This document shows positions 1-62,739 of a stretch of 64,000 nucleotides of DNA, in pieces. The DNA is from Castanea sativa. Its lineage: Eukaryota; Streptophyta; Magnoliopsida; Fagales; Fagaceae. The stretch lies in the NCBI RefSeq assembly GCF_040712315.1, contig NC_134015.1, positions 54,785,464 to 54,849,463 of the forward strand. The letters run 5' to 3'. Both the position numbers and the translations under genes were made by a program. Position 1 is the first letter of the stretch, and the number at the start of each line of letters is the position of its first letter. The notes below the pieces were generated by a model. The model worked only from the letters and a program-made list of their open reading frames with translations, did not search any database and was not told where the DNA came from.

Positions 1-71
1 AGTAAAATCTCTCTTCCTTTTTTTTTCTTTTTTTTTAAATTTGCTTTGGAAAGAAGAAGTTAGAAGTGTAC

Positions 72-377
72 CATATAATCATCAGAGTGTAAATTGGAAG
101 CATTGGAGGGGCAAATAGGGAACATAGCCAAAGCCGTTGAGGTTGCCGTTGCTCCTTCAATGAAACGCCTTCTTCCGCATATACAGCAAAACGACTCACC
201 GTGGCTTCTCTTCATTGGTGCTTTCTGCTTATCATCATCATCGTCATACCGCAAATCAGAGCAACTGAAGGCTGTGATTTTGCCACGTGGAGGTTTCAGT
301 TTAGAGCAACGAGGACTATAAGGTGTAATAATAGGAGTGCTGGAGAAGAAGAGCACGAACGAGGACTTAACTGCCAT
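72..377 (-). CDS. METTL7-like methyltransferase, copy 1, first exon (gene runs off the left edge)
   Basis: The ATG lies at 375-377 and the exon ends at 72, followed by a GT donor (71-70). It encodes about 102 residues: a Ser/Pro/Lys-rich start (MAVKSSFVLFFSSTP) that looks like an organelle transit peptide, a Cys-rich patch (ESFCCICGRRRF) and an Ala/Thr-rich stretch. The same exon, well conserved, begins the six-exon gene at 34288-37986, whose later exons carry a methyltransferase fold; that is the basis for naming this one. The remaining exons would lie left of base 1. The family methylates small acceptors using S-adenosylmethionine; the substrate here is unknown. A MULE is inserted 277 bp upstream of the ATG. 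Whether the gene is intact cannot be judged from this window. Confidence 0.75.
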
Positions 378-653
378 TCTCTCTCTCTCAACTTGTCAGT
401 TGTTCGTTATTCGTTAATCACTCAACTGTATTGTATGAAATGTAATCTATGTGTCTTTTATTTATTTATTCATTTATTAGATAATAATTATCACATACTT
501 GTTTTTTTTTAGAATCACATGTTTTTGTATGCTCACTGTGCACGTACACACGGTCACATAAGCTGAAAATGCAATTTTACTCTCACAATTTGTATTGAAA
601 TTGTGTTTTCAAAACACAATTTTGAAGTAAATGTGTATGAACTATGAAGTATA
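378..653 (-). promoter_or_regulatory. 5' flank of methyltransferase copy 1, cut by a MULE
   Basis: Immediate upstream DNA of the copy-1 gene. Bases 460-640 are similar to 43370-43500, so this is the shared ancestral 5' flank of the two paralogues. It contains a near-perfect 25-bp palindrome at 598-622 that is degraded in the other copy. I see no convincing TATA box. The MULE target-site duplication begins at 654, leaving only about 280 bp of native upstream sequence next to the gene. Confidence 0.45.
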
Positions 654-662
654 CAATAACAA
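654..662. repeat. MULE target-site duplication, left
   Basis: CAATAACAA, identical to 16468-16476. The match can be stretched to 11 bp (adding GG), but 9 bp lets both TIRs start with GGA and fits the family norm. Confidence 0.9.
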
Positions 663-880
663 GGAGAAAATGGCCCATTAGGCATGGATGCTAAAGAATC
701 TAGTTAGTAGGCTCCGGAAGGAAAGTATATAACATACTAATATCTCGACTCTCAGAGAGTCGATTTTCAACCTAAAAATCGAGTCTTAAAGACTCGATTT
801 CCATGTTCTGATCAAATCTGATGTGGCCATTTTCCACGTGGTTGCCACCTGTAAATCGAGTCTTAGAGACTCGATTTACT
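663..880 (+). repeat. MULE left terminal inverted repeat
   Basis: Pairs with 16250-16467. Shared blocks include the terminal GGA-AAAATGG, AGTTAGTAGGC, TATACTA/CATACTA, the palindromic TCGA modules, GATCARATCTGATGTGG and TTTTCCACGTGG. The TIR also contains a CACGTG G-box inside the last block. Further palindromic modules continue inward to 966. Confidence 0.88.
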
Positions 881-966
881 TGTGAAGAAAAATTAAATGC
901 GCTTAAAGGAAATCGAGTCTTTTAGAGTCGGTTTTTAAAGGAAATCGAGTCTTTGAGACTCGATTT
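744..966. repeat. Left cluster of near-palindromic 25-bp modules
   Basis: Five modules start near 744, 776, 854, 910 and 942. Each is built as AAATCGAGTCT, 2-4 central bases, then AGACTCGATTT, so it reads almost the same on both strands. Clustering in and just inside a TIR is what is expected of transposase binding sites or of symmetric methylation targets; this role is inferred. Confidence 0.8.
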
Positions 967-1161
967 GCTATGTTTGGTCCACTTTACTCCACGTGGCTAG
1001 GGCAGCTGCTTTTTATCACCCAATAATAAGTTTCTGAGGTCTGCCGTTTGCCATTGCAAAACAAAATCCAGCAGCTCTCTCTTCCTCTCTCTCTCACTCT
1101 CTCTCTCTCTCACTCTCATAGAAAACTTCAAATCAAACTCATCCTCCATTTACACATTATC

Positions 1162-4100
1162 ATGTCAAGTAAGGTTTTTATACACTCTCTCTAGTTGTTA
1201 GTTTTTTTTTTTTTGAATAGTTGTTAGTTACATAGATGTAATGTTAGGGTTTTTTTTATGGGTAGTTGTTAGTTACATATATGTAATGTTAGGTTTTTTA
1301 TGGGTATGTGTCATTAGTTTTTTTGTTTGGTTTGTAATTTTTCTTTATATTTTTTATAGAATGATTTGAATATTTGTGCATTTAGTTTTTTTTTTTTTTT
1401 TTTAGTATGATTAATGAATTTTCTTTTTTATTTAGAAACAAATGGTAATGATTGAGTATATATGTTAATGTGGGGTTTGTAGATGCATATGATGTAACAA
1501 GTTAGTGTATATATGCTAGGCTTTTTTTTAAAATTTTTTTTTATAAGAAGTAACAAATATTTAAGATATATATTTGTATTGTTAGGCTTTTATCATGGCT
1601 ATTTTTGTTGTTGTTTGGTTTAATATTTGTTATTATCTTTTTGTTAGAATGATTTGAAATTTTGTAGTGGGGGTAAGTGTTGTCTTTAGTTTTTTTATTT
1701 GTTTGAGTATGAAATAATAATGATTGAGTGTGTTTGTATGTGATGTGGAGTGAGTATATGCAAATGTGGGGTGTGTTGGATGTAAGAAGTTGTAATTTTC
1801 CTACTTTGAGTACATAAAAATGTTTTGTAATTGTGTTAAAATATGTCACTAACATATTACCCTTGACTCTAATAGGTTCACAATCTCTGAAGAATATTGA
1901 CGTAAATGTATACTACGGTGGTCCCCTTTTCAATCCTGAACAGATTGACGGATTCGCATTTCAAGGGCCGAATATCGAATGCTATTACATGATACTACGT
2001 CGTAAGTTGAAGACATTGAATGATTTGAAGTTGAAAATAATGAAAGAACTGAGTTTGAGCCCTACTTGTTACGACATAAATATTATTTATCGTTACCCAC
2101 AAGAAGTTCTTTATGAGCGGATAAATTACAAGTACATGGCGATCAAAGAAGATAAACATGTAAAGGTCATGTTTAATAGAATCCATAAAATGCCCCAAGT
2201 AAATGCTGCTGAGTTGTACGTAAGTTCCGAGCCGCTCGCAGAAGTTGATGTCGAAGTTGATGTCGAGGAGTTGCAGCAACAAACAACTACATCTTTGCAA
2301 TTAGACGATGGATGCACTACAATGGGAGGTTACACATTCCCATCTCAAGATAATGCTGCCAATACTAGTGAAACACTTCAACCTCAAGAGACATATTTAG
2401 GGGTGGAGGATGAATATCATTTTGCGAATAATGATGAAAATCTCGATGATATGGATGAGTACGAAGAGAGGATTGAGCGAGGCGACTTTGAGAAGGATGT
2501 GGATGACCATGAACTTGCTTCCAATTTTGAAGAGGAAAATATGGAGTGCCATGATGAAGGTGATGCGGACGATGATATTGGTGTCCAGCATGTTACAAAT
2601 ACGACCACTGCCTACACACCTCCTGCCGAGTCATTCTCCGCAAATACTTGGGAAAATATGGTTGATCCTTCACGTCTTCAGATACCATTTGTTTCTACTT
2701 GGGAAGATGGGATGCATTTTAATAAAGGGTTGACTTTTGCAAATAAAGAGGCGGTGAAGCGTGCATTGATAATATACGCAGCAAAGGATAATAGAAATTT
2801 TATAATCCGGAGGTCGACCAAAACTAAATTGTGCGCCGCGTGCATTGACACCAACTGCAAGTGGTACGTTGGGGCATTCATGAAGGCTAAATTAAATGGT
2901 CTGTGGATGGTCACGTCTTATGTGGTTCCACACAGTTGTATACCATTTGGCTTACGAAGAGACGGTAAAATGATGGGTTCTAATTTTGTTGCATCAGAAA
3001 TTGTGGAAAAATTGCTACAAAATCACACTCGCTCGTATTGAAGAGCTCCGGGCCACATAGATACTAAGTATAATCATAAGCTCTCTTACTATAAGGTATG
3101 GGATGCAAAACAAAAGGCAATTGCTAAGATATTTGGAAATTGGGAGGAGTCTTACCAAAGGTTGCGAAAATTGTTGTTGGCATACTTGGATCAGGATTCG
3201 GGTACCCAAGATGCCTATTGGACCATACCTAGCCCCATAGACGGTACTACGTTACCGCGCTATGTATTTTGGGCATTCGCTCCATGCATTGCTGCATTTA
3301 GATATTGCAAGCCGTTGATCGCATTGATGGGACTCATTTGTATGGTAAATATCGAGGGGTGTTGATGATTGCAATGGCAACGGATGCTAACCAAAAGGTT
3401 TTGCCTCTCGCCTTTGCTGTTGTGGACAAGGAGTCAGGGGCTAGTTGGGGGTGGTTTTTAGAGTGTCTCAGGAATTCGATAGGGCATGTGATACCTAACG
3501 AGGGCATTTGCATTATTTCTGACCGACATAAAGGTATCAAATGCGCCATTGCAGAGTGGCCTTTAGGTGATGATGGAAAGTTACAGGTACATCACCGATA
3601 TTGCCTTCGACATGTTGCTAGCAACTTCAACACACACTTTGATGACCCGACTCTAAAGGCATTGGCCTTGAAAGCTGGATATGCGACTCATGACGCTAAA
3701 TTTAAGTCCATAATGCAAACTATTAAGGATGTCGAGATTAATGCACTGAGGAGGGTAGACCCTGAGGATCCCCATCTTGAACGCCATATGCCATACACAT
3801 ATCTAATGAGTGAGGATGTGGAGAAATGGACCCAGTCACATGATGGTGGAAGACGTTACGGGGCAATGACAACCAATATCTCTGAGTGCTTTAATGGGGT
3901 ACTTAAAGGTGCCCGCGGTTTGCCCATTGCTGCAATGGTTGAGTTCACTTGGTGCAAACTTGTTGCATATTTCCATGATCGACATAAACAAATTACTTCT
4001 GATTGCTCTCAAGGTAAGGTGTGGAGTGATTATGCAATGGGGATCTATAACACAAATTTGCAGAAAACTTCAGGACACACTGTGCGGGAATTTAATCATG

Positions 4101-4636
4101 AGATTGGTGTATATCAAGTGGTTACCCCGTACAACGACCATAAAGGTGGAGGGGGAAACCACAGTCATGAAGTGCGCGTATTTGCTAGAACATGTGGTTG
4201 TGGAAAGTGGCAAAACATTAAGATCCCTTGTTCACATGCAATTAAAGTTTTGCAACAATTGCATCTCAATGCGACTAGCTATATTGACCCATGTTACAGT
4301 TTGGAGAACGCCATTCACACATATTCACATCAATTTGTGGTGCCAATGTCAGAGTCATTGTGGAGGGACGTTCGCGGACCACGGTGGGTGCCTGACCCAA
4401 GTCTGTTGCGGGCCAAAGGTCGCCCTGTGAAGTCAAGAATAAGAAATGAAATGGATGGGGTACGGCGAAAACGGGGAAGCCGGAACCCAGATTCGGACTT
4501 GAGGGAGATTCAACCGAGGCAGCGATGCGGAGTGTGTCATGAAGAGGGGCATAACCGCAGAAGATGTCCCAATTCCCTTGGGGGTTCGACAAGCGGTTCC
4601 CGTGGGGCTTCGACACGTGGTAGTGCTACAAACTAG
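1162..4636 (+). pseudogene. mudrA-like: MURA-type MULE transposase (exons 1162-1168 and 1876-4636; three apparent 1-base indels)
   Basis: Exon 1 is ATGTCAA at 1162-1168, followed by GTAAGG; the intron ends with AG at 1874-1875 and the frame joins as MSSSQSLKNI. After an acidic N-terminal half comes a MuDR DNA-binding domain (about 2700-2940, with paired Cys and a terminal HSC). The MULE catalytic domain has DGTH (Asp at 3326), SDRH (Asp at 3521) and ISECFNGV (Glu at 3884), giving a complete DDE set. A SWIM zinc finger (CGCGKW...PCSH, 4190-4240) and a CCHC knuckle (4525-4566) follow. Extra and missing bases near 3036 and 3057 create a TGA at 3039-3041, and a missing base near 3322 shifts the frame again. 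The gene is therefore dead as read, although each lesion could be a consensus error. It is transcribed inward from the left TIR; a CT-rich leader lies at 1075-1120. Confidence 0.9.
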
Positions 4637-5200
4637 GCAAGTGCCTTTGTTGTTTTCATATAATATGCTCAGAATCTTATTTGGTTTTTGTTCTTCGCAT
4701 TGGAACTAACAACTGCATTTTAATGTTTTTCAGGCGAGCGGAGGCTCGATTTTGGAATGGCATTGTACGTGGGAGTTGTAGTTATCTTCGGTATGGACAA
4801 CAAGTGTTACGCAACTATGTAGACTATGTTGTATCGACTTAGTTGTTATTTTGTTTATTACTGAATGTTGTTGTAATTAAAGCAGTAGCTATCCATTGTA
4901 CTCGTTACATTAGTTGCGTTGTGCAGCTTTTTTGCCTATAATGCCAGCAATCGTACTACTTTGGCATTAGTAGCACTTACTTCGGCAAGTTCAACCACAG
5001 GGGCCTTGTTTGAAGCAATGATAGCTAGTTATCAAATTGTATGCCGGATGTACACGGCCTTAAATTTGTATGGTCTGTACCTAAGAGGGCAACTATATTG
5101 CGCATGCCCAGTAACTAATTAATGTTTGTATACATTGCCCATGTGTTGTGTTCTGGATTTGGTTTACAGTTGCAGGGGGGAAGGAAAAAAAATTTTTGGT
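4637..5200. other. 3' flank of the transposase gene
   Basis: A likely 3' exon or UTR: a CAG acceptor-like site at 4731-4733 is followed by non-repetitive DNA. I see no conserved coding sequence before the GC-rich array. Confidence 0.4.
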
Positions 5201-5204
5201 ATAC

Positions 5205-5815
5205 TGCTGCAGGGCATGCCAAGGCCTTGGCTGCATGCCTTGGCCTTGGCTGCATGCCCTACCTTGGCCTCGGCTGCACGCCATGCGCCTTGGCCTTGGC
5301 TGCTGCATGCACATGGGGGCTGCCTAGGGCCTGGCTGCCTAGGGCCTGGCTGCCTTGGCCTTGTGCATGCCTTGGCCTTGGGAGCGTGCCCATGGGGGCT
5401 ACCTTGGCCTTGGCAGCACGCCCATGGGGGCTGCCAACGCAGCCACGCCCTAGGCAGCCCCCATGTGCATGCAGCAGCCAAGGCCAAGGCGCATGGCGTG
5501 CGTAGCGTGCCCATGGGGGCTACCTTGGCCTTGGCAGCACGCCCATGGGGGCTGCCTTGGCCTTGGCTGCATGCCCTGCCTTGGCCTTGGCAGCACGCCC
5601 ATGGGGGATGCCTTGGCCTCGGCTGCATGCCATGCGCCTTGGCCTTGGCTGCTGCATGCACATGGGGGCTGCCTAGGGCCTGCCTGCCTTGGCCTTGTGC
5701 ATGCCTTGGCCTTGGCAGCGTGCCCATGGGGGCTACCTTGGCCTTGGCTGTGTGGGCCTTGGCCTTGGCAGCACGCCCGTGGGGGCTGCCTTGGCCAAGC
5801 TGCTTGCCTAGGAAG
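5205..5815. repeat. GC-rich minisatellite with an internal inverted repeat
   Basis: Variants of CCTTGGCCTTGGC, GCACGCCCATGGGGGCTGCC and CTGCATGC recur throughout, giving a GC-rich island in AT-rich DNA. All reading frames stay open for long stretches because of this composition, so the long Ala/Leu/Gly/Trp ORFs on both strands are not evidence of genes. Segment 5276-5330 (55 bp) recurs as an exact reverse complement at 5447-5501, and again in direct orientation at 5625-5679 with one mismatch. The array ends in an A-tract at 5825-5843. Confidence 0.85.
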
Positions 5816-5849
5816 ACTAACAGGAAAAAAAAAAAAAAAAAAACCCAGT

Positions 5850-6236
5850 AGAAATCGAGTCTTATAGACTCGATTTCTAGTGTAAATCGAGTTTCTGTAA
5901 CTCGATTTGTATACGACTTATTCACGAAAATACCACTCAAATAGAAATCGAGTGTCAGAGACTCGATTTCCACTGGGAATTTTTCCAGTGGCAGTTGCCC
6001 GTAAATATTTTTGAACTCTCTGCCTGGCGTACTCGCTGGTACTGAACTCGAGTTCCACTGATGCAAATCGACAGTCTAAAACTCGACTTCTAAACGGATG
6101 GCATAATGTAGTGCAAATCGAGCAATAAACACTCGACTTCTGTAGGACTTATTTACAAAAAAACCACTTCAATGGAAATCGAGTCTCTGAGACTCGATTT
6201 CCACTGGGAATTTTTCCAGTGGCAGTTGTCCCTATC
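5850..6236. repeat. Internal cluster of TIR-type palindromic modules
   Basis: Six modules of the same AAATCGAG...CTCGATTT design as in the TIRs start near 5852, 5884, 5945, 6065, 6114 and 6175. Two blocks of about 90 bp (5917-6005 and 6148-6236) are direct repeats and share GACTCGATTTCCACTGGGAA and TTTTTCCAGTGGCAGTTG. The cluster lies between the convergent transposase and PMD genes. It may be a fossil TIR from a nested or fused element, or a functional mid-element site. Confidence 0.8.
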
Positions 6237-6239
6237 TGT

Positions 6240-6900
6240 CTTAAACTTTCAATGGGTAATTTGAGACTCCTGGAAGTACATTGTTTTAGTTTAAAAATTA
6301 TAAACCAAATTTTGAAACCCACTCTTGTATCAACCTTGATCTCTAATTACAAGCCTTTCCTGAAATGATTGCCTGTGCGAGGGTGGTACATTGTAACCAT
6401 TAAAAAACAGGTACTAAACATAAAAATAGCATTCAAACGCCACTCATCTCAACAAATCATGCTCTACGTATTCAAATATTTGCGTTCATATTAATGATAA
6501 AATCACAAGGCTGGTACAGTTCAAGTGCCAAAAGAAAAAAAGAAAAAATAGACAAGTAATGTGACAACAGAAAACGGCTTAAAGCAGCTCACTAAGAATT
6601 TTGAACAGCCAAAAAGGGAAAGTATACCATCTATGAACTTTAAAATTCAACAAGAAGAAAAAAAAAACACTATGTCTCAACACTACAAGTGTTAATAAAA
6701 TACATAACCATCCACAGTCCATTATGTCATGAAAACTATCTCCACTAACAGCTTCCAAAAATAGCTTTTAACTGAAAGCCAGTCAATATATTGTGAAGAA
6801 CCAAATTCCTGCAGCTGCAATCTATAGAAGCCAGTCTTGTGTACATTGAAGAAAAGATTATCCCTCTGAGAAGATACCCACACAGGTAAAAAAATTCCAA
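6240..6900. other. Unassigned MULE interior
   Basis: AT-rich DNA without a recognisable gene or repeat. It could be 3' UTR or intron of whatever transcript contains the minus-strand exons at 6902-8557. Confidence 0.4.
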
Positions 6901-6901
6901 T

Positions 6902-7075
6902 CTAGGAAACAGATTTTAGAAGGATTCCCCATGCCTTCGTTAATTTATTCTGACATTCTGCCTTGTCGTGATCATTCGCTTTAGTGTAGCTAGCCAGAAG
7001 TTGCACTCCAACAGCGATAATGCTAGTTGAGGCCCCTTCTGCAACATCATTTGCCATCTTCAACAAGTAACTATG
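6902..7075 (-). pseudogene. Unidentified terminal coding exon (captured host fragment?)
   Basis: On the minus strand a GCAG acceptor (AG at 7078-7077) is followed, after one phase base, by an open frame of 57 codons ending in TAG at 6904-6902. It contains KMANDVAEGASTSIIAVGVQ and later CQNKLTKAWGILLKS. Codon usage and the clean acceptor and stop look like a real last exon rather than chance. I do not recognise the family. It lies just downstream of the VPE and eL22 fragments on the same strand, so it is probably another transduplicated piece. Confidence 0.45.
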
Positions 7076-7234
7076 CCTGCATTGATATTTAAAATTAGAA
7101 AATAGAAGACATTATTTTGTACCCCCTAGGTATCCATTATTTTTCAAGCACCCAATTAATTTTCCTAAATGTGTGTGATTCTTTAGTGTCCTCCCCCCTT
7201 TTTGAACTTTCATAACAATGCAGTTGGTTCTTAC

Positions 7235-7917
7235 CAATCTATACTGATCGCGCAAAGTTTCTGTCCGCAGATTGTGTTGGTCACTGATCACAAAGTCATA
7301 CCGTTAAAACTAGAACAGAAAAATAGGAATTGCACAGTATCAAGTGGATACTTCTAAATTTTAGTTCATCAGCTTAGTGAAATACCTAAACAGGAGTGAT
7401 CATATAAAGAGAAGCACCCAAAATAGGTGTAGAGAAAAGAGATTCATGATGTGATAGATTTCAGCTAACATGCACTTACCTTTCAATTTTTCTATGTTTA
7501 TATGACTTATTTTTCATTTTTTGGAGGACAGTGGAGGTGCAGAGTCTACTCAACCAAGTAAATTGGAACCATTTTGGAGATAGTTCTTCTATACGGTTGA
7601 GGCTAATCTTAGTATAACTAAAGTGAACCTGATATTTGCAAACTATTCTTGTTATTTCTCATATAACATGCATAAAAATACAGAAAAATTTTGCATACCT
7701 GTCTTCCATCCAAGCAACACTATACAAGTCACCCAAACAAGTTTCATGGATATCCGAGAGGACTAGGATCCTCTCCAGGACAATAAGTTCCCCAACTGCT
7801 CTCTTCTGCATTTGATGATGTTGTTGCATACATATTCAAACCTTCTGGAAGAAATTCAAGATGCTTCCAGACTCACAAGCTTCAAGATAAAATAAGCATG
7901 TTCTAAGGCTTATTGCA
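7235..7917 (-). pseudogene. Captured vacuolar processing enzyme (legumain) fragment, two exons with intron
   Basis: The exon at 7917-7699 contains [10 protein letters not shown] (including the legumain catalytic Cys), [31 protein letters not shown] and DLYSVAWMED. It ends with an AG|GTATGC donor. The exon at 7283-7235 continues in the correct phase (S-DQHNLRTETLRDQYRL) and ends with a GTAAG donor. VPEs are vacuolar cysteine proteases that cleave after Asn/Asp. Short indels after ESGSI and after the PSP motif break the frame, and only part of the protease domain is present, so this is a non-functional copy. The retained intron shows it was captured as DNA, the usual Pack-MULE mode, rather than through mRNA. 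Confidence 0.85.
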
Positions 7918-8378
7918 CTGCACTTGAGCTCAAAAATATAATTAAAGGAAACTGACCGAAAGCCTTAACCCAGAACACTTAGGGAGGAGCTAAATTTATT
8001 TATTTCCTTCTTCTATTATGGACTTATAGTCTGATACACACAAATCAGAACTCTTCACAATTTAAATCCAAATGAAACTGTATGTAAAAAGCCTACAATT
8101 TGCCTAAGAAACACCCAGACACTCATCATTATAAAAGATCACATTTAGCTTGAGCTTCATACAAATTTATGCAAATGCCAATCTAAATTATACATAAACA
8201 ATCCACTAAGTAACTCAGAATCATCAGTCCATGAATTTCATACCAGCTCAAATAGGTGTCCAATAATCAGATGCCAAATAACATTAGAGCATTAGCCTCA
8301 AACACATCAATAAAGATATTCATAAGTGGAAAATATATATTTACACATACATCAGATATGGAAACAAATCAAAATTAC

Positions 8379-8557
8379 CTCTTAGAGAAGTTACTGTCAG
8401 AAGTAACAGTGATCTTGCTCTTCTCCCGGGTTACAGTGACAGTGTCACCAAGAGCACCAGCCTTGCCTCCAACCTTGATCCTCTCCTGGAGAAACTTCTC
8501 CAGGGATGCAATGTCCATGATCTTGTCCTCCACTGGCTTTGTACAGTCAACAACAAA
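8379..8557 (-). pseudogene. Captured ribosomal protein eL22 exon
   Basis: An open stretch reads [20 protein letters not shown], then [17 protein letters not shown], then [15 protein letters not shown]. This is the conserved core of cytosolic large-subunit protein eL22 (RPL22). It stops at AG|GTAATT, which falls inside the Arg codon before the expected KYL block, at a plausible native intron position. The N-terminal basic tail and the C-terminal acidic part are absent nearby. No frame break is seen inside the exon, which suggests relatively recent capture or chance preservation. Confidence 0.88.
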
Positions 8558-8559
8558 TA

Positions 8560-9560
8560 TTTATTGATAGAGGCACCAAAGCAAACACCCCTCTCCCCCT
8601 AATAAAAGCACATACATCTATTTTTTTTTCCCCTCTGCCATTCACACAATCGAATACCAAATGCCTTTGAAATACGCATCTACAATGCAAATGACATACT
8701 CCGTATACATACACAAATCAATACATAAATGTACATTTTGCTTATTAAGTATTTAACACACACAAACGGAGAGAGGGGAGAAGGTGTCAAGTACATTTTG
8801 CTTATTAAATCCATGTAAAAGAGTCATTTAAATTTAAAAGCAAACGAAATATACATACACCAAATGCATTCTGCACTGTCCTTGCCCACACCCCATTTGC
8901 CACTGGCTGACAATACCAACCCAGTGGCTTGAAAGCAATTTTTTGTGTCACTCCTCAGTCCTCCCCCACAAAAAGTCCCAAGCTTAGAAGTACATATACT
9001 CTCCCTCCCCTAATGGAGTTGTCTTTTCACAACTGATATGAATCCAATGGTTCTAAGTGTCAACAAACTAAGCTATATCCTGCAATACAATTAAACCATA
9101 TTAAGCCTCATAGGAAAGACTAGCTATCAAATAATACACACACGCACACAAAAACATGTTGGACTCAAGTGAGCCTAGTATAACTGTAAATTGTACAATA
9201 ACTATTGGAAGAATTAGCCAAGGTTTTCATGTTTGCTTAGCCTTATCAACAAGCCTTGACGATTTTGAACATTTTAATCCAAGAAGAAAAAGCTAAGCTT
9301 AAAACAAACATGAAAAAACCAGGTTACTGCACCAGATTACTGCACCTCCTAGCAATCTATAAGAATACATAAATAACCAAATTCAACTAATAACAACGTA
9401 CCTAACTTTCTAGAATTCTTTTCACCTACAATCTGCACATCCTCCACACATCATTCCCTGCCATACACACACAACACAGAAACACAACCAATAATAAACA
9501 TAAGACAAATATATGAAATATGCCTATCTAACATAGAAATCTGTGTCTCTCTTCTGTCTA
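8560..9560. other. Non-coding MULE interior
   Basis: AT-rich DNA with two short copies of GTACATTTTGCTTATTAA about 60 bp apart (8731 and 8791). No conserved coding sequence is recognised. It lies 3' of the PMD stop codon and probably includes that gene's 3' UTR. Confidence 0.4.
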
Positions 9561-9561
9561 A

Positions 9562-12255
9562 TTACCTTTTTTGAACTTTACGTCGTCGCGCATAATGAGG
9601 AGGAGGTCTTGCATGTCCTTCATCAGATGCCTCGGGCCCAACATTGTGTCCATGTTTGTGCCCCCCTGTCCCACAAGGAGGTGCCTTTGCTATGCGTTTC
9701 GGCCGACCTCCTGCCTCTGCAGGTAACCCAACAGCCTGCTCAACGTGAACATGGGGTGGGTCAATGCCCGAAGAAGGGCCAGTGGATGCACTGTGGGAGG
9801 GTGGCTGCGGGTGCATGTCAGGAGGAGTTAGATCAAGACCCAGGTCGAAGGAAGGAATGGGTGACAGCTCAGGAAATGACCGTGGGGTGGGTGGACGGAT
9901 GTCAGACCCAGGACATGGATGTGGAGTGGGTGAAGGGATGGTGGTGGGGCTAGGGGATGGATGTGAGATGGGTGAGGGGATGGTGGGGCTAGGGGATGGA
10001 TGTGGGATGGGTGAGGGGATGGTGGGGCTAGGGGATGGATTTGGGGTGGATGGGTGGGGATCGGGGGTAGGGACAAGTCTCGGGGTAGCAATAGACGAAC
10101 GAGACCCACGTCCGACAGGAGCTCTGCTTGTGCTTGGGCTTTGAGTAGGTGCTGCCGCAGGAGTAGCTGCCTCCTCATTCGGGGCCTCAGGGATAGGAGG
10201 TTGTACACGGCCAATCTCCTGCACTGCATTTAGCACATCAGTAATGTCCTTGTGGTCCTCGGTGCCCACTGGGTGACGCCTCAACAAACGGGCATATCCT
10301 TCAATCTGACATGAAAAAACCAGGTATATTAGTAATTCAATCGATAATAAAATAAACATTGGTTTTGAATTGGTTCTGCTAGTAATAATTGCAAGTTATA
10401 GGGAGACCAGGTGTTACCTTTGACTAAATTTAAATTATCTTTTATATTAAGGATGTAGCTAGCGCATAGAGTAGACAAAATGCTAATTAAAAATTCAACA
10501 GATAGAAAAGTTACCATTATAATCAATCTAGCACCGAGGACATTGATGAACCTCCGAGTTACCCTTTTGTACCAATCGAAGTACTCGTGTTGTGGAGGCA
10601 TATCACCAACCACTGCTTCACAACGCTGTTGAAGGCGATTACCCCACTCTGTAATATGCGCAGCATGTTTCCGCATCCAATCAACACCAACCTTCCCCCT
10701 CAAATCAATGGCATGGAGCACTGTATCGGTGTCAACATTACGGGGAATTTCTTGGATCATCCCGAATTGACGAACGACACGATCCGGTGTATGTTTCTCT
10801 ACTAGGTGGAAACATACAAGTGGCACCGTTGCCGTCCACATGGCCCTCCCTACAACGCACCACGGCGGAAGGTTCTCGAATTCAGCTTCATACGGCTGCC
10901 ACACCACCTACGACAGCCAAAAAACAAGCAACACATTAGGCAACAATGTTTATATGGCAAAGTTCACTAAACCTATATCTTGTTCCTAAACATGTTAAAT
11001 AAGGCATTTTCATACCTGGCCTGGCAACATTGAAGCTATTTGCTCGCGATACCTGTCCAGGAAGATGTGGGCGGGCCTGTTTTTCTTGTTTGGGACCCAC
11101 AACCACCTACAATCCAGAACAAGTGATCATATTAACCGATATAATTTAGAAAATTTGACACAAAATTATAGTGTATAACCTCTATTTCAAATTGTTTAAT
11201 ATAGACTCAAATAATTCCTAGAAGCTTTTAAAAAAAATAAATTGAAGTGACATGACGTGTATGAGGTAGAGACTTACTTCAGGGACAGTGGACCACGAAC
11301 TGGAGGACCATAAGCATCCACTGGCGGGCCATGTACAACTGTCGGGCACAAATATGGGAACCTAGCCCATGCCCAATACTGGACCAACAGCAAACACCCA
11401 CCAATCTGATTAGCTTTCTTATCGCTTGCCCTGCATAACTCTCGGTACAACCATGCAAGGCAAGCACTTCCCCAGCTGTACCTTCGTGGATTGCGAAGGT
11501 CTTCCAACTGCTGCACCCACATCAGATGCACCCTATCGCCGGATTTGTCCATGAAGATTGTGTCCCCTAGAAGCGCTAGGATGTAGCATCGTGCATACTT
11601 ATGCAACTGATCCTCTGTGGCATTAGGCGGCAAGGGATTGGCAACAGCTTCCAAAAGCCGTTGGATGAGAATCCTCTGGCCATGAAGTTCCTTTCTCTGA
11701 TTGTTTGCAGGTCTGAAGCCAAGAAATTCCTCACACACGTTCTCCCATTCTTTCTGCGTGCTCCCTGTAATGACCTCGCCGTCAACAGGAAGCCCAAGAA
11801 GAACCTCCACATCTTGCAAGGTGATGGTGACCTCACCATGTGGCATGTGGAAGGTGTGAGTCTCCTGCCGCCATCGCTCCACTAAGGCCGTTATCAGGCC
11901 GTGGTCGATCTCTCTACCCGGGGTCCTAAGGAGTCCCTCCAAACCGAGTGCCTTAATGATGTCAATGACTCGGTCGTCCACCATTGGCTCTCGATCGGAG
12001 AACTCTTCAGTACGGACACGGCATTTAAGAGACCCTGGATCCTGCACAGAACAAAACCATGGATTAATATATGACAGCAAGTGCGCTCACATTGTATGAA
12101 TCAAATGTGTGTACATTCGTTAAATATTTAGTGTTGTGCTTTACCTGCCCATTCCAAATAGATTCAGACCGATGGTTGGCCTGCAACGTCAACACCGACT
12201 GGTCAATGGGGCCAGGCTGTGTGTAGTCAATCTGTCCAGCATTTGCAGCAGCCAT
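9562..12255 (-). CDS. Plant mobile domain (PMD) protein of the MULE, five coding exons, 700 aa
   Basis: Coding exons are 12255-12145, 12041-11278, 11106-11016, 10907-10515 and 10305-9562, all with GT/AG borders and matching phases (0, 2, 0, 0). The product starts MAAANAGQIDYTQPG. Residues about 60-430 form the PMD, with FHMPHGEVTITLQDV and LLGLPVDG near residues 101-125 and WLWVPNKKNRPAHIFLDRY later. The C-terminal exon is Pro/Ser-rich, with repeated PSPSPTIPSP units, and ends in a basic tail (ARRRKVQKR). Host PMD proteins (MAIN, MAIL1) act in the nucleus in gene and transposon silencing; PMD-coding genes are also known inside plant transposons. Here the gene reads inward from the right TIR, convergent with the transposase. 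No frame break is seen. Confidence 0.9.
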
Positions 12256-13275
12256 ACTGCACAAGAATGATAAGCAATTAGCACGTAATAGACATTGAAA
12301 ACAATTAAAGGAAATAAATAATGTTGAACTGCATAAGAAGTAATGGAGACAGATTGTACCACTGTTTACAAGAACTATCAGAGTTCCACAGCTAATAACC
12401 CAAAAGAATATCTTTGAGGAAGGATTTGATAAAGTGAAAGGGAAGTAAAAGTTGGTAATCTTGAGTTTATTACCATATCCTGGTAGTAGTCTAAAATAAA
12501 ATTAGGGATAAAGTTTTCCTTCAAATTGGATAAGAGGAATCTCCTATAAGCTATAACCCACCATCCACATGTGTTCTAATCACATAACTCATTAAGTCAT
12601 TTAAACCAATCACATAATTATTAAATATGCCATTTGATTAAAGCAAACACAAATGATCATTTGAATTGCCAAGTATTAGGTTGAACAAATTTTCTCCCAA
12701 ATAAGTTTTGAGAAAAATTCTTTCATAAAGTTAGCCAACTTTTCCATTAAATATTGAGTGCTAAGAGGAAAATGTCACCAAATGGCTATCCAAGCAAACA
12801 ACTATAGATATGTTCTTCCGACTTCCAAGTGGGGTACATAGGTACAATTGGAAACTCTAAAGTTCACAATTTTTAAGTCGTCAAAGAGAGATTGTATAGG
12901 GATTAAACTTCACTACTATATTTAAAACAAAAAGATATATTCAGTAAAAAAAAAAAAAACTTAAGCCAAACCCTAACTAAATTACCATCCATAAAGTCAA
13001 AATGTCATTCAAAACTAGAGAATCAGAATTAATTGCTGTTTAGGGCACTTTCTCTTGGCTTGCAAAGAGTTAATTGTTATACTTCTTTAATGCACAAGCA
13101 GGTGAGTGTTTCTCATTTCTTATATTTGTGCTCCCTAAAGTGGGTGTGCTCAAAATATGTATGAGCCTCTCATCAAAGCTTATAAGTTGACTTAAATATT
13201 TAATAAGTATTCTATAAGAGGGTTATGCATGTTCATCATCACTGGTGCTGATCCCAGATTTGTTATTGTTTTCAG

Positions 13276-13479
13276 GTACCATGTTTGAGTGACAACCATG
13301 CATATCTTTTGCACGATGTAGATACAGGCACAGTTGGTGTTGTTGATCCTTCTGAAGCTACGCCTGTTACAGATGCTTTGAAAAGGAAAAACTGAATTTC
13401 GACATACATATTGAACACCCATCATGATTATGATCACACAGGAGGAAATGAGGAGCTTAAAGAAAGGTACGGTGCAAAG
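13276..13479 (+). pseudogene. Captured glyoxalase II (hydroxyacylglutathione hydrolase) exon
   Basis: An exon with acceptor TTTTCAG and donor AAG|GTATGA encodes 68 codons: [39 protein letters not shown], stop, then STYILNTHHDYDHTGGNEEL and a final GAKV. This is the N-terminal metallo-beta-lactamase fold of organellar glyoxalase II, which hydrolyses S-D-lactoylglutathione. A TGA interrupts the exon, and the metal-binding THxHxDH motif has become THHDYDH, losing one His. It is a dead fragment. Confidence 0.87.
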
Positions 13480-14707
13480 GTATGATATTGTTATCTTTTG
13501 GTCAACTGATTTATTATCTTTATTCTAAAGTATTTATCTTTAAAAGAAAATGTATAAACTTCCTTGTCCAATTGATTTCCATGTTTCAAAGCTTATTCCC
13601 CAAAAATGGTTATGTACGATATATTTTATACAATACACTCATGATGGAAATAGATATTTATATGGAGAATTTTAATTAAATAACCATTCTGATCTGATTT
13701 TAGAATTTAGATATCCTCCTATGTTTTGCTGGTTACAATTAAATTAGCCGACTTATCTGAGTGGTTATTTTGTTTGGTTGTCTTTTTTGTCTTGAAAATG
13801 ATTTGTGGACCACACCAATCTTTCCTCTTTTTATATGTTTCTTTAAAATTTCCATGTTTATCGTATTAGTATTTTTATCTCTTGTAATACTTGATACCGT
13901 CAACTTGTTATAATTTTCTAACACATTCTAAGAATTATTGAAAATGTGGCAATATTGGTAAAACTAGCCGTAGTAACTACTATTATTGCAGAATACGAAT
14001 TTTTCAGAATTAGTATTAGTTTAAGAGATTTACTACAAACTTGATAGAAGTCTTCTTGCCTTGTTCTTGAAGCTGTTCAGTGTTTATATTGGTCTCAACT
14101 TTCATAAATTTTTCTACCTCCCTTTTTAAGTCGCAAATACCTATGATTATGTTGATTGCTATCATTTTGATGGTCAATTCCCTTCTTTGAAGTATATAGC
14201 AGGCGCCAAATTAAATAATGTTGGGCCTTATGCATGCTTCATGACTATAGACCGATCAATGCCAATCAGAGTTTTTCTAATAGATTCTGACATTTCATCA
14301 TTCTCTTATAGTATTTATGTGATGCAGGGAGTACAGAGATAGTTTTATTTAAGTTTAAAAGTCTAGTAAGGTAATTAGGTTTTAGTATTTTATTTAATTT
14401 CATAGGGTTAAGGGTATTTGCCTAATTCAATAATTGGGCTTTGGCCCAAGTGAATTAGAGTTAGGGTTTAGTCTTAGTAGTCTCTCTATATATTATTAGT
14501 ATTTTATTTGATTTCCTAGAGTCTTAGTAGTCTATATTTTATTTATGAACATTAATAAGTTGTTTCTAAAATCAATTTATAACCACACTTTTTTTTTTGA
14601 CAAGTCAGTAATTCCATTAAGAAGATATTAAGTACAAATCAGCAAAGCATCAGCTTTGATGTACTAAACACAAACACTTAATTAACCCCTCAAACTAAGT
14701 TCTAAAA

Positions 14708-15296
14708 GAGAACTACACAATTAGCCAGTACACCTATCCATGCCAAACCTATGCTTTCTACCAAGCTAGAGCCCCAGACTTCCTTCACCTGGCCTCCATA
14801 GGTGACCTCTTCTCGCCGCCGCCTCAAGATATCAGAACCCAGCAACATATCCTCCCCTTCCTCCGCTCTTGTTGCTGGCCAACCCCTCTTTGTTCCTATT
14901 TCATGCTCTTGTAACTCCATTAACACCACCACTAACTTATCCTATGCCAATCTCTCATATGTAATCAAACCAAATGACACTTTCTACATTGTTTCCACCT
15001 CTAAGTTTATGAACCTCACAACCTACTATTCTGTTGAGCTTGTCAACCCCACTCTAGTCCCTACCAACCTTTCTATTGGTGTTACTGTCCTTTTTCCTAT
15101 CTTTTGCAAGTGTCCTAACACGACCCAGGTGCAAAACAGAGTCAAATATCTGATATCCTATGTGTTCCAACCTTTTGATAACTTATCATCAGTTGCTTCA
15201 AGGTTTAATGTTTCACAACAATCTATAATTGATGTTAATGGAAACAACTTTCAGCCTTTCAATACCATATTCATTCCAATGCTAAGGTTTTCGTAA
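14708..15296 (+). pseudogene. Captured LysM receptor-like kinase ectodomain fragment (LYK4/LYK5 type)
   Basis: The fragment begins ENYTISQYTYPCQTYAFYQA, has one frameshift near 14806-14818, then continues LKISEPSNISSPSSALVAGQ, PLFVPISCSCN, VNPTLVPTNLSIG, CKC, and SYVFQPFDNLSSVASRFNV to NTIFIPM. It carries the CxC motifs that separate LysM modules in chitin-receptor-like kinases and covers most of the three-LysM ectodomain. The signal peptide, transmembrane segment and kinase are missing. Such receptors sit in the plasma membrane and sense chitin or related glycans. The long open frame from 14802 to 15296 is notable for a captured piece. Confidence 0.85.
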
Positions 15297-15794
15297 GTAT
15301 TATGTTAAAAGTTATGTCATCATGATCCATTTCTTTAGGGTCTAATCTACTCATCATACCAAAGCTATGAAGTATAAACCATAAGATGCACATAGAAAGG
15401 ACATCATTCTATTATTATGTACCATATTGATTGCAGAATAATACATCCTGTTAAAAATGCTAATGAAGATATTATGAGAGAGTTTCAAATCTTGAACCAT
15501 AACCAAAAACTGATGTAAGTTCCATAAATAAAAAAATAAAAAAAATTGGAGTGGCCTTTGTAAGTTCTTAACCCAGGAATGTGCAAATCATCAACCTTTT
15601 TATTGTATCATATTTGAAGGTGCACATGTTCCACATTAACTAGTCTTCCAATGACAATGTCAATCATGCAATAATTGTAAACAGAAATTTGTGAACAACA
15701 TATTACTCTCAAAGACAATCAGTTCAATCATGATTTTCGAACAAAAACCACTAACCCACATAAAAAAATCACACACTTAAGAAGAAAAACATAC

Positions 15795-16140
15795 CTGCTT
15801 ACTGAGTGAGAGTGGAGAGAGTGCTTGAGAGTGGAGACTATGGCAGGCCGAGTGACAGCTCAGGGGGCGAGTCAGAGGGTGGAGAGCCGTGACAGCTGCG
15901 AGTGAGAAGGTGGACAGAGGCGCAAGAGGGAGAGTGAAGAGGCGCGAGAGGGAGAGTGAGTGACAGAGAGTGGCTCTGGTCTGCGACAGTGAGAGGGTGA
16001 GTGACAGAGAGGGAGAGTGAAGAGGCGCGAGAGGGAGAGTGAGTGACAGAGAGTGGCTCTGGTCTGCGACAGTGAGAGGGTGAGTGACAGAGAGTGGAGA
16101 GAGGCGCGAGAGAGAGAGTCTGTGCGAGAGGCTGGACTTG
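15795..16140 (-). promoter_or_regulatory. Putative promoter and 5' UTR exon of the PMD gene
   Basis: Read on the minus strand this is CT-rich (CTCTCTCT, CACTCTC), like the leader of the transposase gene at 1075-1120 on the other side of the element. It ends with a consensus donor at 15795. It contains a two-copy tandem repeat. MuDR genes are driven from promoters in the TIRs; the same is inferred here. Confidence 0.5.
15938..16103. repeat. 83-bp tandem repeat, two copies
   Basis: Copies start at 15938 and 16021 with the same AGAGGCGCGAGAGGGAGAGT opening and near-identical content, including GTGGCTCTGGTCTGCGACAG. They lie in the putative PMD promoter or leader. Confidence 0.85.
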
Positions 16141-16165
16141 GGTTAATTTGAAAAACCCCTATTAG

Positions 16166-16390
16166 AAATCGAGTCTCAAACACTCGATTTCCAGGTGGTT
16201 CAAGTGACATGTACACGTCACCTGGAAACCGAGTATTTAAGAGTCGATATATAAATCGACTCTTAAAAACTCGATTTCCAGGTGGCCGCCACGTGGAAAA
16301 TCGCCACATCAGATCTGATCAACCCACAAAAATCGACTATCTAAGAGACGATTTATAGCCTCAAAATCGACTCTCTAAGAGTCGAGATGC
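16166..16390. repeat. Right cluster of near-palindromic 25-bp modules
   Basis: Five modules start near 16166, 16226, 16251, 16330 and 16363, the same design as the left cluster but with more substitutions (for example AAACCGAGTA...GAGTCGATAT). Confidence 0.75.
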
Positions 16391-16467
16391 TAGTATACTA
16401 TTAACTTATGAAACAGTGCCTACTAACTATATTCTTCAGCCGTTAGGGCTATTTGCCCATTTTGTCC
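16250..16467 (-). repeat. MULE right terminal inverted repeat
   Basis: Reverse complement of the left TIR with scattered mismatches and only about one net base of drift over 190 bp. More palindromic modules continue inward to about 16166. Confidence 0.88.
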
Positions 16468-16476
16468 CAATAACAA
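16468..16476. repeat. MULE target-site duplication, right
   Basis: CAATAACAA, directly after the right TIR; exact match to the left copy. Confidence 0.9.
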
Positions 16477-16639
16477 GGTTGTAAACATGATTTTTTATTT
16501 ATTTAATAATTTGCTAATATTACCTTGAACTTTGATTGAGTGTCAATTGGGTCCTTATTGGATATTTGATTTAAGCAATTCACCCCTTCGACATTAGGCT
16601 TGTGATAATTATTTTGTTTGTATTTTTTTTAATGGATTT

Positions 16640-18640
16640 AATTACATGATGTGTGTGGTGGGTATTTTTTGTAATATTGGGCTGGACTACCTTCTGCTGT
16701 GCTAGGCCCAAAGTGTTCTGGATCAAGGAGTTGAGATCAGTCCAATTGCAACCTACCTTGGTCCGACTTGTGCACAAACTATGCCCCGTTTACCAAGATT
16801 TTTGATTACATGCCCATGGCAGGCAGAACCACTATAGTAATTACGGCAAACAGAGATAACAAAGATAATAAAAGAGATACATTCGTTATTTAGACAAAAG
16901 TAAATAATGGGTCATTACAAGGAATGCATGTTTTACGAAATAGCAACAAAAATAAATACGGGAGAGGTAGTAATAAGCTTATTGAATCAAAGAGAAATAT
17001 CAGTTTGCTGTGTCAAGTTATGTTATAGGGTCAAAGTCAAGAAGGGAGTCATTTCCTCAATGCGAATAATCTCTTTGGGAAAAAATTAACTGCTTTGAAG
17101 GAACGAGCCTAAATGACTTGTGCCCAGAGAAATCCCTTGCCTTTAGCAGAGAGCATGAGTTTGAGAGAGAGAGAGAGAATCAACCTATCTGGTGCATGCC
17201 TGCTATTCTATTCTCTCCATTTTGTTTTTCATGTTCTCTTTAATTCTTTCTTTCTTTTCTCTTCGTTTTATCTCTCGGTGTTTGCTTAGTTGTTGTGATT
17301 CTCTCCTTAGAGGTTACTATTACCGTCCTCCCTTTCCAGTGCACAGTAAGGGTTCTTTATATAATACCTGCCGCGGTTAGCTTTTACCATTTTAGCCTTT
17401 AATCACCTTTGTCAAGTGTGGGTGTCCTTCCCGACCATTATTGATTGGTCAGTTGCTCAGCCAACACCACTTACTTGTGCTGGCCGCGCCACTCCACATC
17501 ACCAGACGAAGAGGACTGTTTTGTTTGTTTGCTTGCCATGGCATTCTAACCTGTCACATCGTGAGTGCTCTCTCTCCATCCCTCATGGCATGCACTTAGT
17601 GGTTCCAACTCATCCTTGCTTCTTTTGGGCGGTATGTCATTCCAGCAGGACACTTCCCCCAAAAGAGCCTGAGCAGGGACCATAAAATATGTTATCCCTC
17701 TCCCCATTACCAGACCATGCCCTCTTACCTCTGGCCCATGACCCACCACTTCTTGTATTGGCTGGGTACAGGCTGGTGGTGTCTGGGCCTTGCACGTGTC
17801 TCACTTCCTTGCATGTGCCTCACTTCCATGCTCGTCCAAAATATGCTTGTTGCTTATGCGTTTGCCACGGTTTGGAGGTCCGTCGGCCCATTCTGCCATT
17901 CGTCTTTAACTTCTTATGGCGTGAGCTGTTTCTTGATTTCTCATTCCTTATGGCTTGCTCCCTTAGGGGCTGGGCTTTGCCTGATTGTGGGCTTTCCCTC
18001 CTTCAGGCCACTCTTTTACTTCTTCTTGCGGTCCTGTTATCATTTCCTGGCGTATTATTATGCTATTCCTGCCGTGATGTTATTCGACTCAGAACTGCTG
18101 AGCCTCTTTGGGCTTGCTGCTTATTTCTTTTTTGATGACCAGTAAGCTCATTGGGCCTTTTACTACATTACTTGCGGACTCCCGTATCCCATTTACTTCC
18201 TTTTGGGCATCCTTGGCTCATTTACTTTCTTGGAGCATCCTTGGCCCTTTCTAATTCTATGTTTCCCATGGGCTTTTACTAACTCCTTGGGTTTCTCTGG
18301 CTCAATTACTTTATCCTTCATCCTTGGGACTTATAGACTCTCCATTACCCCTTACTTTCTTTACTTGCATTACTTCGGGTCTGTTGTGGCTACTATGGTC
18401 CATTCTCACTTTTCTACATCACATACTGCCCATGGGTTTGCTACTTTTCTCTAACGGGCCTTTTTAGGCCCGTTTGTTTCCTCAAGGTCCATTTGTTTGC
18501 TTTATGGACCTATGATCCATTATTTCTACCGCTTGGGCTTAATGGCTTTGCTATCCAATTTCTAACTCTCTTCTGCCCACATTGTTGGACTTCTTCTTCC
18601 TAATGGGCTTCCAAAAAAAAAAAAGAAAAAAAAAAAAAAA
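16640..18640. mobile_element. Possible LTR-type repeat fragment
   Basis: A pyrimidine-rich stretch with GGGCTT/GGCCCA words and a TATA-like box (TTTATATAATACC, about 17355), ending near an A-rich tract (18613-18640). The composition resembles long plant LTRs. No pol domain, paired LTR or target-site duplication could be confirmed, and the open frames here look like composition artefacts. Confidence 0.3.
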
Positions 18641-18734
18641 AAGAGCATCTACAATGTGCATATTGTTTCCACCGCATTATCAATAAGTTAAAATGGTTAA
18701 ATCATAAAATTAATAATTGAGAGATTAAATTAGA

Positions 18735-18905
18735 CTTTACTTGTAGGTTCAAATTAGTTTAACTGCAAAAGTCTCTTATAATTGAATAAGAGATTTAGGG
18801 TTTGAACCTCATCTACATAAAAAATCAATTGATATCTTAACCTGATGATTAGAGCAATTATTATGGAGTGGGCAATATAAGTTGAAATTCTATAAAAATA
18901 AAAAA
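18735..18905 (+). repeat. tRNA-like SINE candidate
   Basis: TAGTTTAACTGCAAAAG resembles a Pol III A box. About 45 bases later GGGTTTGAACCTC resembles a B box, with an AATAAGAGATTT link between. The layout fits a tRNA-derived SINE head; no clear poly(A) or target duplication was found. Confidence 0.4.
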
Positions 18906-18909
18906 TTAC

Positions 18910-19165
18910 TTAATAAGTTAATAGTTGGATGACTAAGTAGCTTAACATATATTTTGCATTTGATTTTTTGTCATTTTAACATGATATTAAATTGGGGATT
19001 TTCTTTGCAAGTGCTAGGTCACATATCATCTCATCCATATCCATGTCATTATATATAAAAATTATCATGCTCGTGTGGAGTCATATATATAAATACTTTT
19101 TTGAACAAAATAAAATATGTTGTTTGACATCAAATAAAGAAACATGGTAAATTGCTTGATGATAC
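18910..19165. other. Left arm of a segmental duplication (pre-insertion flank)
   Basis: From about 19095 the sequence matches 57970 onward (GAACAAAATAAAATATGTTG shared), up to the retrotransposon insertion point. Nothing coding is seen. Confidence 0.7.
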
Positions 19166-19169
19166 TATC

Positions 19170-19819
19170 TGATGATGCCAAGAAAATCAGTAGGCTGGAT
19201 GCTTCGGACTTGAAAGGACTACTGGTTCTTTCTACGGCCTGAAAAAGAAAGAAAAGCGTATCAAAGGCGACCGGGGCTGCCGGCCAAAAATCCTCCGATG
19301 GTAAAGTTAGTTTTCCCTCTAAGTAATCTGAGTTCCAACTTTCTTTGAGTAAAAACTGAACATACCTTTGCCTTGTCTGAATCAGTCTTTATATAGTGCC
19401 TTCATAGACGGTTATCGAAATGGGAACCTCTCCTGGATTCGAGGCTTAAACGTAACTGCCATAACCGTCCAGGAGTTACATTTCTATTTCACAACGGATA
19501 CATGACCGTTATGCGTGGGATAAGGGATTGTCACATTTTATTCGGAGATTCTCCCAAGTATGGTACCCTCGTCCTGAATTTCCTTCGTCGAGTGCACCTG
19601 CTGATTCCAAGTGTAAAATCCTAGTCCATGGATCTTCACGTGGACGAGTCCTCTCAGGGTAGGCTGTACGCACCCCACGGACGAGGGATGTAGCTTCGCT
19701 ATCACCCTCTGGACGTCCTTGTTCGTTACCCTCGTCCTGAGGATAACTTCTGGACGGCTGCCGAGGTGATGACCGTCCATGGACGGGTTGGGTGGTTTGA
19801 GTGTTTTCATCCCACATCA
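19170..19819 (-). repeat. 3' LTR of the Tat-like element
   Basis: 650 bp, same length as its partner. A short purine run (GACGAGGGGCAAC on the minus strand, 19832-19820) directly precedes it and could be the polypurine tract. Confidence 0.93.
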
Positions 19820-20160
19820 GTTGCCCCTCGTCTAGGAGTTATACGATGTATTAATAGATTTTAAAACGCACCACGTGTCACACATCCATAGGAGGTTAGT
19901 CAACCGGTTTACTCCTCCGAGGCATGCGCCACGTGTCACCTTATAATTAGGTCCGTCGTTGCGGTTACCGAGACTTTTCTGCTTATAAATAGTGGTTTCT
20001 CCCTCATGCCCCTCTCACTTTTTCAAATTTTCCGCTTTGACACTCTCGTCCATCGCTTCATCTAAGAATATCCTCAGCGTCCTTAGTGTCCCTCGTCTAG
20101 AGCCAGGTAATCTTTCTATACTCACTTTAGTTTTCCTTGTTAAGTGTTAGGACGTTTTCA

Positions 20161-50600: not shown

Positions 50601-50770
50601 TTAGACCAAACAATATAATAACGGTATTCAAGCATCGGTGTGTTCGGTAATACAGTTCAGTCAATCATCTGCAACTACAAAACATCACACTCTCATCTCT
50701 CCCACCCTTCCATTCCATATTTCCATCACACTGACTTTGAAACCTACCTTGAGGAAAATCGTATTCATAT

Positions 50771-62462: not shown

Positions 62463-62739
62463 AGTGTAATAAAATTTGTACATATTTATTTCCATTTGTC
62501 AAGAATGTGAATAAATTGTATTTCACAAGAAAATCTGAAATATTTATGTTCCTTTTGCATAAGTCAAAAGCTTAAGTATGTATATTCATTTAACTTGTAT
62601 CACAAAATATAATAAGTATAGATATGGTTTTCATTCTTAAACATCATTCAGGTGTCATGTAGATTAGGTTCATTAATTTTTCTCACACAACCGGAATTAG
62701 GTAGTACATGAAGTTGTGAGACTTCCATCATCGCAAATC

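Follow-up and report, generated by a model that had tools for sequence, protein, structure and literature searches.

A Mutator-like element family of Castanea sativa in which a plant mobile domain gene is very probably a selected partner of the transposase gene

Ends and genes of the element

In a 64,000-nucleotide stretch of Castanea sativa DNA (assembly GCF_040712315.1, contig NC_134015.1, forward-strand positions 54,785,464 to 54,849,463; this whole stretch is hereafter the window), we analyzed a Mutator-like element (MULE) of 15.8 kb that spans window positions 663-16467 and holds two convergent genes, one for a transposase and one for a plant mobile domain (PMD) protein. A previous sequence-only reading had proposed precise ends with a 9-bp target-site duplication and terminal inverted repeats of about 218 bp, and this was confirmed in that an exact 9-bp direct repeat, CAATAACAA, was present at 654-662 and 16468-16476 as the target-site duplication, and the diverged terminal inverted repeats at 663-878 and 16252-16467 were complementary at 76% across 216 nt. 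When up to one mismatch was allowed, the end motif GGA(G/C)AAAATGG was present within the element only at its two ends. The element is placed among the MULEs by a duplication in the 8-11 bp range (here 9 bp), a MULE-type DDE transposase and terminal repeats that are common to copies. The features of the ends and of the two genes were as follows:

654-662, unstranded: left target-site duplication CAATAACAA, identical to the 9 bp at 16468-16476
663-878, plus strand: left terminal inverted repeat, 76% complementary to 16252-16467, with gapped similarity continuing to about 966
1162-4636, plus strand: transposase gene region (Pfam MULE, SWIM and DBD_Tnp_Mut; three-frame reading)
9562-10305, minus strand: PMD exon 5, with a proline-rich tail and the motif GRPKR..KAPPCGTGGHK (splice model and cross-copy comparison)
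10515-10907, minus strand: PMD exon 4 (splice model)
11016-11106, minus strand: PMD exon 3 (splice model)
11278-12041, minus strand: PMD exon 2, domain core (splice model; 149 scored genome matches)
12145-12255, minus strand: PMD exon 1, with the start codon (GT-AG splice model)
15795-16142, minus strand: probable CT-rich leader exon of the PMD transcript, ending at the donor AG/GTATG (donor string; upper bound approximate)
16252-16467, minus strand: right terminal inverted repeat, complementary to the left repeat (gapped alignment)
16468-16476, unstranded: right target-site duplication CAATAACAA, the same 9 bp as at 654-662

The host genome (716 Mb in 13 contigs) was searched with window 640-900 as the left-repeat query, which gave 50 rows, with 40 matches scored (the window's own included) of 1,008 first-look candidates. 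The scored matches started at query positions 21-28 in 34 of 40 cases (position 24 corresponds to window 663), at positions 12-19 in five, and at position 1 for the window itself; since those 34 starts fall so close together, the left end is sharp and common to the copies. In addition, 9-bp duplications were read at eight further copies, as printed for L009, L018 and L028, and after a by-eye shift of the boundary for L011, L013 and L021-L023.

The transposase gene reads in from the left, as had been proposed, with main frames at 1818-3041 and 3302-4636 and a possible first ATG at 1162, and its separate frames matched Pfam MULE (6.6e-16), SWIM (5.3e-06) and DBD_Tnp_Mut (1e-05). The gene is broken in the window copy, a point that the sequence-only reading had not stated: an in-frame stop lies at 3039-3041, and a frame shift further downstream. 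An uninterrupted transposase frame of 935 amino acids was found in the relatives L019 and L020 (2 of 19 stretches), and that of L019 matched the same Pfam families (MULE, 6.9e-16), with DBD_Tnp_Mut falling just under the curated cut-off.

The PMD gene reads in from the right on the minus strand, and GT-AG splicing of its five exons yields an uninterrupted 700-amino-acid protein (Pfam PMD, 7.5e-85), in agreement with the five-exon gene and the two-gene convergent plan described earlier. Given that the window copy pairs an intact PMD gene with a broken transposase gene, it would by itself depend on transposase from other copies. The five-exon pattern was repeated at a locus of lineage B and partly at one C and one D locus read (lineages as defined below), and the C-terminal motif, in the form GRP(K/Q)R...AP.CGTGGHK, is common to the B, C and D loci read. 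Of nine right ends compared, with the window among them and the lineage-B locus set aside, six contain the donor string of the probable leader exon; the lineage-B locus has a similar string. When the PMD domain was searched against PDB sequences, the best E was 0.2, structure prediction for PMD exon 2 from 21 sequences was of low confidence (mean pLDDT 38.8), and no Rfam match was obtained in window 1-20000. PMD genes have also been reported in Gypsy elements (PMC9289625); the gene studied here lies within MULE terminal repeats and convergent to a MULE transposase, and not inside a long terminal repeat retrotransposon.

Linkage, co-diversification and constraint of the two genes

A genome search with PMD exon 2 gave 149 scored matches of 1,548 candidates, which were sorted into tiers of identity set after viewing the rows: A (87-100%), B (79-86%), M (75-78%), C (67-71%) and D (65-66%). 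Tiers C and D are not cleanly separable by identity, as L051 and L054 (67%) are D-like in sequence and were grouped with D for dN/dS and with C for linkage. Two transposase searches of 95 and 98 rows were merged into 123 distinct places (40 A, 30 B, 51 C and 2 other), and stop-free transposase frames of at least 918 amino acids were present in 12 of 95 rows (three in lineage A, four in B and five in C). The results showed that at least 77 of the 123 transposase places (33 A, 22 B and 22 C) have a convergent PMD downstream within 25 kb; the linkage counts are lower bounds, with the A-type PMD of L014 and the PMD exons of L026 falling outside the 149 matches. When 400 circular shifts of at least 100 kb were used as the null, the mean was 0.34 and the maximum 2. 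An earlier count from one transposase search had given 67 of 95 against a null that averaged 0.33 and reached a maximum of 11, the latter because very small shifts had been allowed. Furthermore, the lineages of the two genes matched in 74 of the 77 linked pairs (C and D taken as one), compared with a mean of 26.9 and a maximum of 43 in 10,000 permutations. In the three mismatched pairs, an A transposase was linked once to a C-tier PMD, and a B transposase twice to an A-tier PMD. Counted from the PMD side among the matches listed, a transposase partner was found for 34 of 44 A, 20 of 47 B and 23 of 39 C copies. Linked pairs with both a stop-free transposase match and a stop-free PMD exon 2 were present at C8:11.1M (A), C4:16.1M and C12:45.3M (B), and C6:44.9M (C), the PMD reading in these pairs being mostly limited to exon 2. 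As a separate observation, the PMD linked to the lineage-A transposase at C4:18.99M has 71% identity; an NFP receptor gene fragment (described below) adjoins, and the arrangement may reflect an exchange between lineages.

When the family was viewed by its terminal repeats, 18 of the 40 scored places (the window's own included) had a convergent PMD inside, five had a PMD in the same orientation and 17 had none listed; at least three of the five same-orientation places are other ends of elements already counted, and L014 and L026 are among the 17. Seven complete copies of 3.5-9.6 kb with the same ends (L009, L011, L013, L018, L021, L022 and L023) had no PMD match, and L028 (5.4 kb) retains PMD exons 1 and 2. 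The short copies without PMD are deletion derivatives that have lost the gene.

The sequence-only reading had called for congruence between the two genes and for dN/dS below 1 in both, and the data went in that direction on each count. Transposase and PMD distances were correlated among 13 lineage-A elements (Mantel r 0.64, reached by 13 of 20,000 permutations) and among eight elements of A, B and C (Mantel r 0.98, reached by 6 of 8,000 sampled permutations). The Nei-Gojobori dN/dS of PMD exon 2, expressed as ratios of means, was 0.26 within A, 0.24 within B, 0.20 within C and 0.36 within D, with 0.35 for A-B and 0.22 for A-C, and that of the transposase C-part was 0.41 for A copies without stops, 0.45 for A copies with stops, 0.62 for A-B and 0.34 for A-C. 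In single pairs, PMD exon 2 of L035 gave 0.30 against B (Fisher p 1e-8), 0.23 against C (1e-18) and 0.08 against the window copy (1e-5), and the comparable transposase pairs gave, in the same order, 0.61 (p 0.01), 0.32 (4e-15) and 0.45 (p 0.11), the last of these (L019 against the window copy) not being significant and the A-B comparison being weakly significant (p 0.01-0.02). Together, the linkage, the lineage matching and the constraint make it very probable that the PMD gene is a selected partner gene of the transposase and not a passenger, as had been suggested from the window alone.

Several points weigh against a partnership of the two genes. The sequence-only reading had held that the PMD gene would be a passenger if other copies lacked it, and this holds for a part of the family: in addition to the seven short copies, 46 of the 123 transposase places have no downstream convergent PMD among the matches listed, partly from incomplete lists, while at least 77 do have it. 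Of those 46, one B copy has a PMD on the same strand, for one C copy the sole PMD is an upstream one of tier A, and the remaining 44 have none among the matches listed. Likewise, no transposase partner was found among the matches listed for PMD tiers M (0 of 8) and D (0 of 11), no search having been aimed at a lineage-D transposase. The PMD-less short copies L011 and L023 retain transposase sequence, and the PMD gene is therefore not needed on the same copy. The transposase and PMD trees conflict in places, e.g., in the nearest relative of the window copy, so that exchange between copies is likely. With regard to selection, the dN/dS of PMD exon 2, which ranged overall from about 0.1 to 0.4 in mostly open copies and indicates purifying selection, is biased down because 20 PMD copies were selected as free of stops (L012 and L027, two A copies included later, do contain them), and PMD synonymous sites are near saturation in the A-C and A-D comparisons. 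In point estimates, the PMD constraint is at least as strong as that of the transposase.

The palindrome array and possible roles of the PMD protein

Two blocks lie between the genes, the second of which had not been described in the sequence-only reading:

5200-5810, unstranded: GC-rich (68%) minisatellite-like block past the transposase gene (direct and inverted repeat families; GC content)
5837-6216, unstranded: inter-gene block of 19-bp palindromes TCGAGT-N7-ACTCGA, without a transposon end motif (repeat and motif counts; RNA fold z-score -11.6)

The GC-rich block sits between the transposase gene and the palindrome block, and similar sequence is present in L015 and L019. The palindrome sites are found in the terminal regions of the element and as an array between the two genes. 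Exact TCGAGT-N7-ACTCGA occurs eight times in the window, always within the element, where none is expected by chance; with up to two mismatches it occurs 15 times in 1-20000, again all within the element, and not at all in 20001-64000. A single TCGAGT...ACTCGA pair lies outside the element, with a gap of 22 bases. Across the 19 stretches of lineage A, the spacer is exactly 7 bases long in 97 of 114 such pairs, and the inter-gene array advances in steps of 60, 61 or about 120 bases in most of the ten copies listed. The palindrome was also found near the right end of the single loci read for lineages B, C and D (the lineage-C right end being read by eye from L031), in C and D mostly with different inner bases. 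Genome-wide there are 7,492 palindrome sites versus 50 for the reversed control, and the palindrome is a strong signature of the family and a candidate binding site. The 7,492 sites far exceed the 123 transposase places, and many short family members are likely. The block 5837-6216 also has a strong RNA fold, as is expected of palindromes, and as an alternative to a binding site it may have a role as an RNA hairpin at the 3' ends of both transcripts.

The same block bears on whether what appears as one element is in fact two adjacent transposons joined at 5837-6216, the left one with the transposase and the right one with PMD. The palindrome repeats shared by the block and the terminal regions would fit such a junction, but the block has no end motif, other copies such as L012 and L026 have the same gene order with the block in between, and the gene pair is found again in lineages B and C, all of which leaves this explanation with almost no probability. 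The possibility, raised earlier as a refuting case, that the PMD gene might have transposon borders of its own was not upheld, there being no end motif of its own inside the element.

We propose that the window element belongs to a MULE family of several lineages, complete members of which would carry two genes under selection: one for a MURA-type transposase at the left and, convergent to it, one for a PMD protein at the right, the latter protein probably acting as a nuclear accessory factor that benefits the element. The mode of action that we favor for this protein would be counter-silencing: it would compete with the host MAIN/MAIL1 silencing complex or mimic it, and the family palindromes near the ends and between the genes may guide it. 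We put this mode forward tentatively; the combined explanation of a two-gene MULE family with a counter-silencing PMD protein, in which the partnership weighs most, is somewhat more probable than its opposite. MAIN and MAIL1, two host PMD proteins, are required for transposon silencing in Arabidopsis, the function of the domain itself being described as unknown (PMC7156037, PMC8616336), and host PMD proteins have been given a role in silencing (PMC5418596, PMC7156037). Counter-silencing was suggested for PMD-C found in MULEs of several grasses and Amborella (Ikeda et al., 2017; PMC5418596), and the idea was repeated in a review (PMC8616336); PMD lies inside a MULE there as here, fused to the transposase in those elements but encoded by a separate convergent five-exon gene in ours. 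VANDAL elements of Arabidopsis (Hosaka, 2017; PMC5735166) resemble the window element in being MULEs that carry an additional gene and have short repeated motifs in their non-coding parts, although VANC is not described as a PMD protein in the portions of that paper available to us, and the window side of the likeness is the motif arrays. Half of the VANDAL group is listed with PMD and/or DUF (PMC6446971, Table 1). Counting against counter-silencing is that it draws on analogy with VANC and on host PMD genetics, the evidence in our study being that of sequence. A narrower version, in which the PMD protein would be a sequence-specific, element-encoded counter-silencing factor acting through TCGAGT-N7-ACTCGA, i.e., a VANC-like factor built on the host MAIN/MAIL domain whose target palindromes drift between lineages, we regard as improbable.

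A different role for the partner gene would be that of a transposition or integration cofactor, the functional counterpart of maize MURB, without counter-silencing. The convergent second-gene position and the retention with a matching transposase lineage fit a protein that cooperates with its own transposase, and mudrB has been reported as apparently required for integration (PMC6446971). However, L011 and L023 bear transposase sequence and target-site duplications without PMD, which could be supplied in trans, and the reported roles of host PMD proteins lie in silencing and gene expression. We consider a cofactor role rather unlikely. Abermu has an opposite-strand gene of unknown function, and related elements without such a gene were recently active (Gao et al., 2022; PMC9168764), which speaks against such genes being needed in general. 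PMD genes are found in many transposons, and if transposons keep PMD under selection beside the transposase, then the domain is useful to the transposon, which offers a route to host MAIN/MAIL function. With open-frame gene pairs from three lineages, naturally occurring deletion derivatives and a candidate target on the DNA, the present family makes the question testable.

Maize MuDR has two convergent genes, mudrA and mudrB, between long terminal repeats. The element described here has the same two-gene convergent plan with a second gene that is PMD by Pfam, mudrB being described as a protein of unknown function (PMC6446971). The sequence-only reading had raised the possibility of a distinct MULE lineage with a new architecture, which found no support: PMD is often or mostly antisense to the transposase in several plant MULE groups, including one named MUDR (Dupeyron et al., 2019; PMC6446971, Table 1), so that the transposase plus antisense PMD architecture, found here in the window and at least 76 further linked transposase places, is already known. 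Groups 42 and 47-50 of that study have in common with the window element a SWIM-type MULE transposase, 9-bp duplications, long terminal repeats and a PMD that is often or mostly antisense; the comparison is by description, and a selection test, lineage matching and a palindrome array are absent from the parts of that paper available to us. What is new is the evidence for transposase-PMD linkage, co-diversification and constraint, together with the palindrome array as a candidate target, the novelty of the palindrome not having been searched in the literature. No report of transposase-PMD co-diversification was found among the open-licence papers listed in our searches.

Captured host fragments and surroundings

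The element also holds pieces of host genes that the sequence-only reading had not included:

8375-8560, minus strand: captured ribosomal protein eL22 gene fragment (Pfam Ribosomal_L22e, 2e-21; PDB eL22 chains, best 9e-30)
14802-15296, plus strand: captured NFP-type LysM receptor gene fragment (Pfam LysM2_NFP, 1.1e-23)

The NFP fragment is an open piece of 164 codons that was found at 10 genome places at 96-100% identity, seven of them inside or beside family elements. It may lie within an intron of the PMD leader, because the CT-rich leader and its splice donor are located directly inward of the right repeat. Capture of host genes is known for MULEs, and with at least two captured fragments in the window element, the PMD gene might be a passenger of the same kind. 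This is highly improbable: in the window copy PMD is a complete five-exon gene, and it is found again, at a dN/dS well under 1, across three matched lineages, whereas the captured pieces are partial and the cargo varies between copies while the gene pair recurs (of 19 stretches, many of them too short to reach the regions concerned, 3 hold NFP and 2 hold eL22). The captured fragments are like those of Pack-MULEs; here, the complete members of the family are large and keep their transposase, with the fragments as extra cargo. A glyoxalase-like fragment suspected by eye near 13250-13480 is not claimed, as the piece tested (13252-13395) had no Pfam match, and the open frame at 6902-7111 likewise had none.

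At C2:24.12M (L034 and L033), downstream of a lineage-D PMD, there is an open frame that by eye resembles a piece of a U5 snRNP GTPase-like gene, together with a second palindrome block. Elsewhere in the window, pieces of other transposable elements (Pfam Transposase_28, RT_RNaseH and RVT_3) were found at 20131-20817, 24956-25735 and 62712-63236, and the start of a cytochrome P450-like gene (Pfam p450, 6e-06) lies at 50753-51421.

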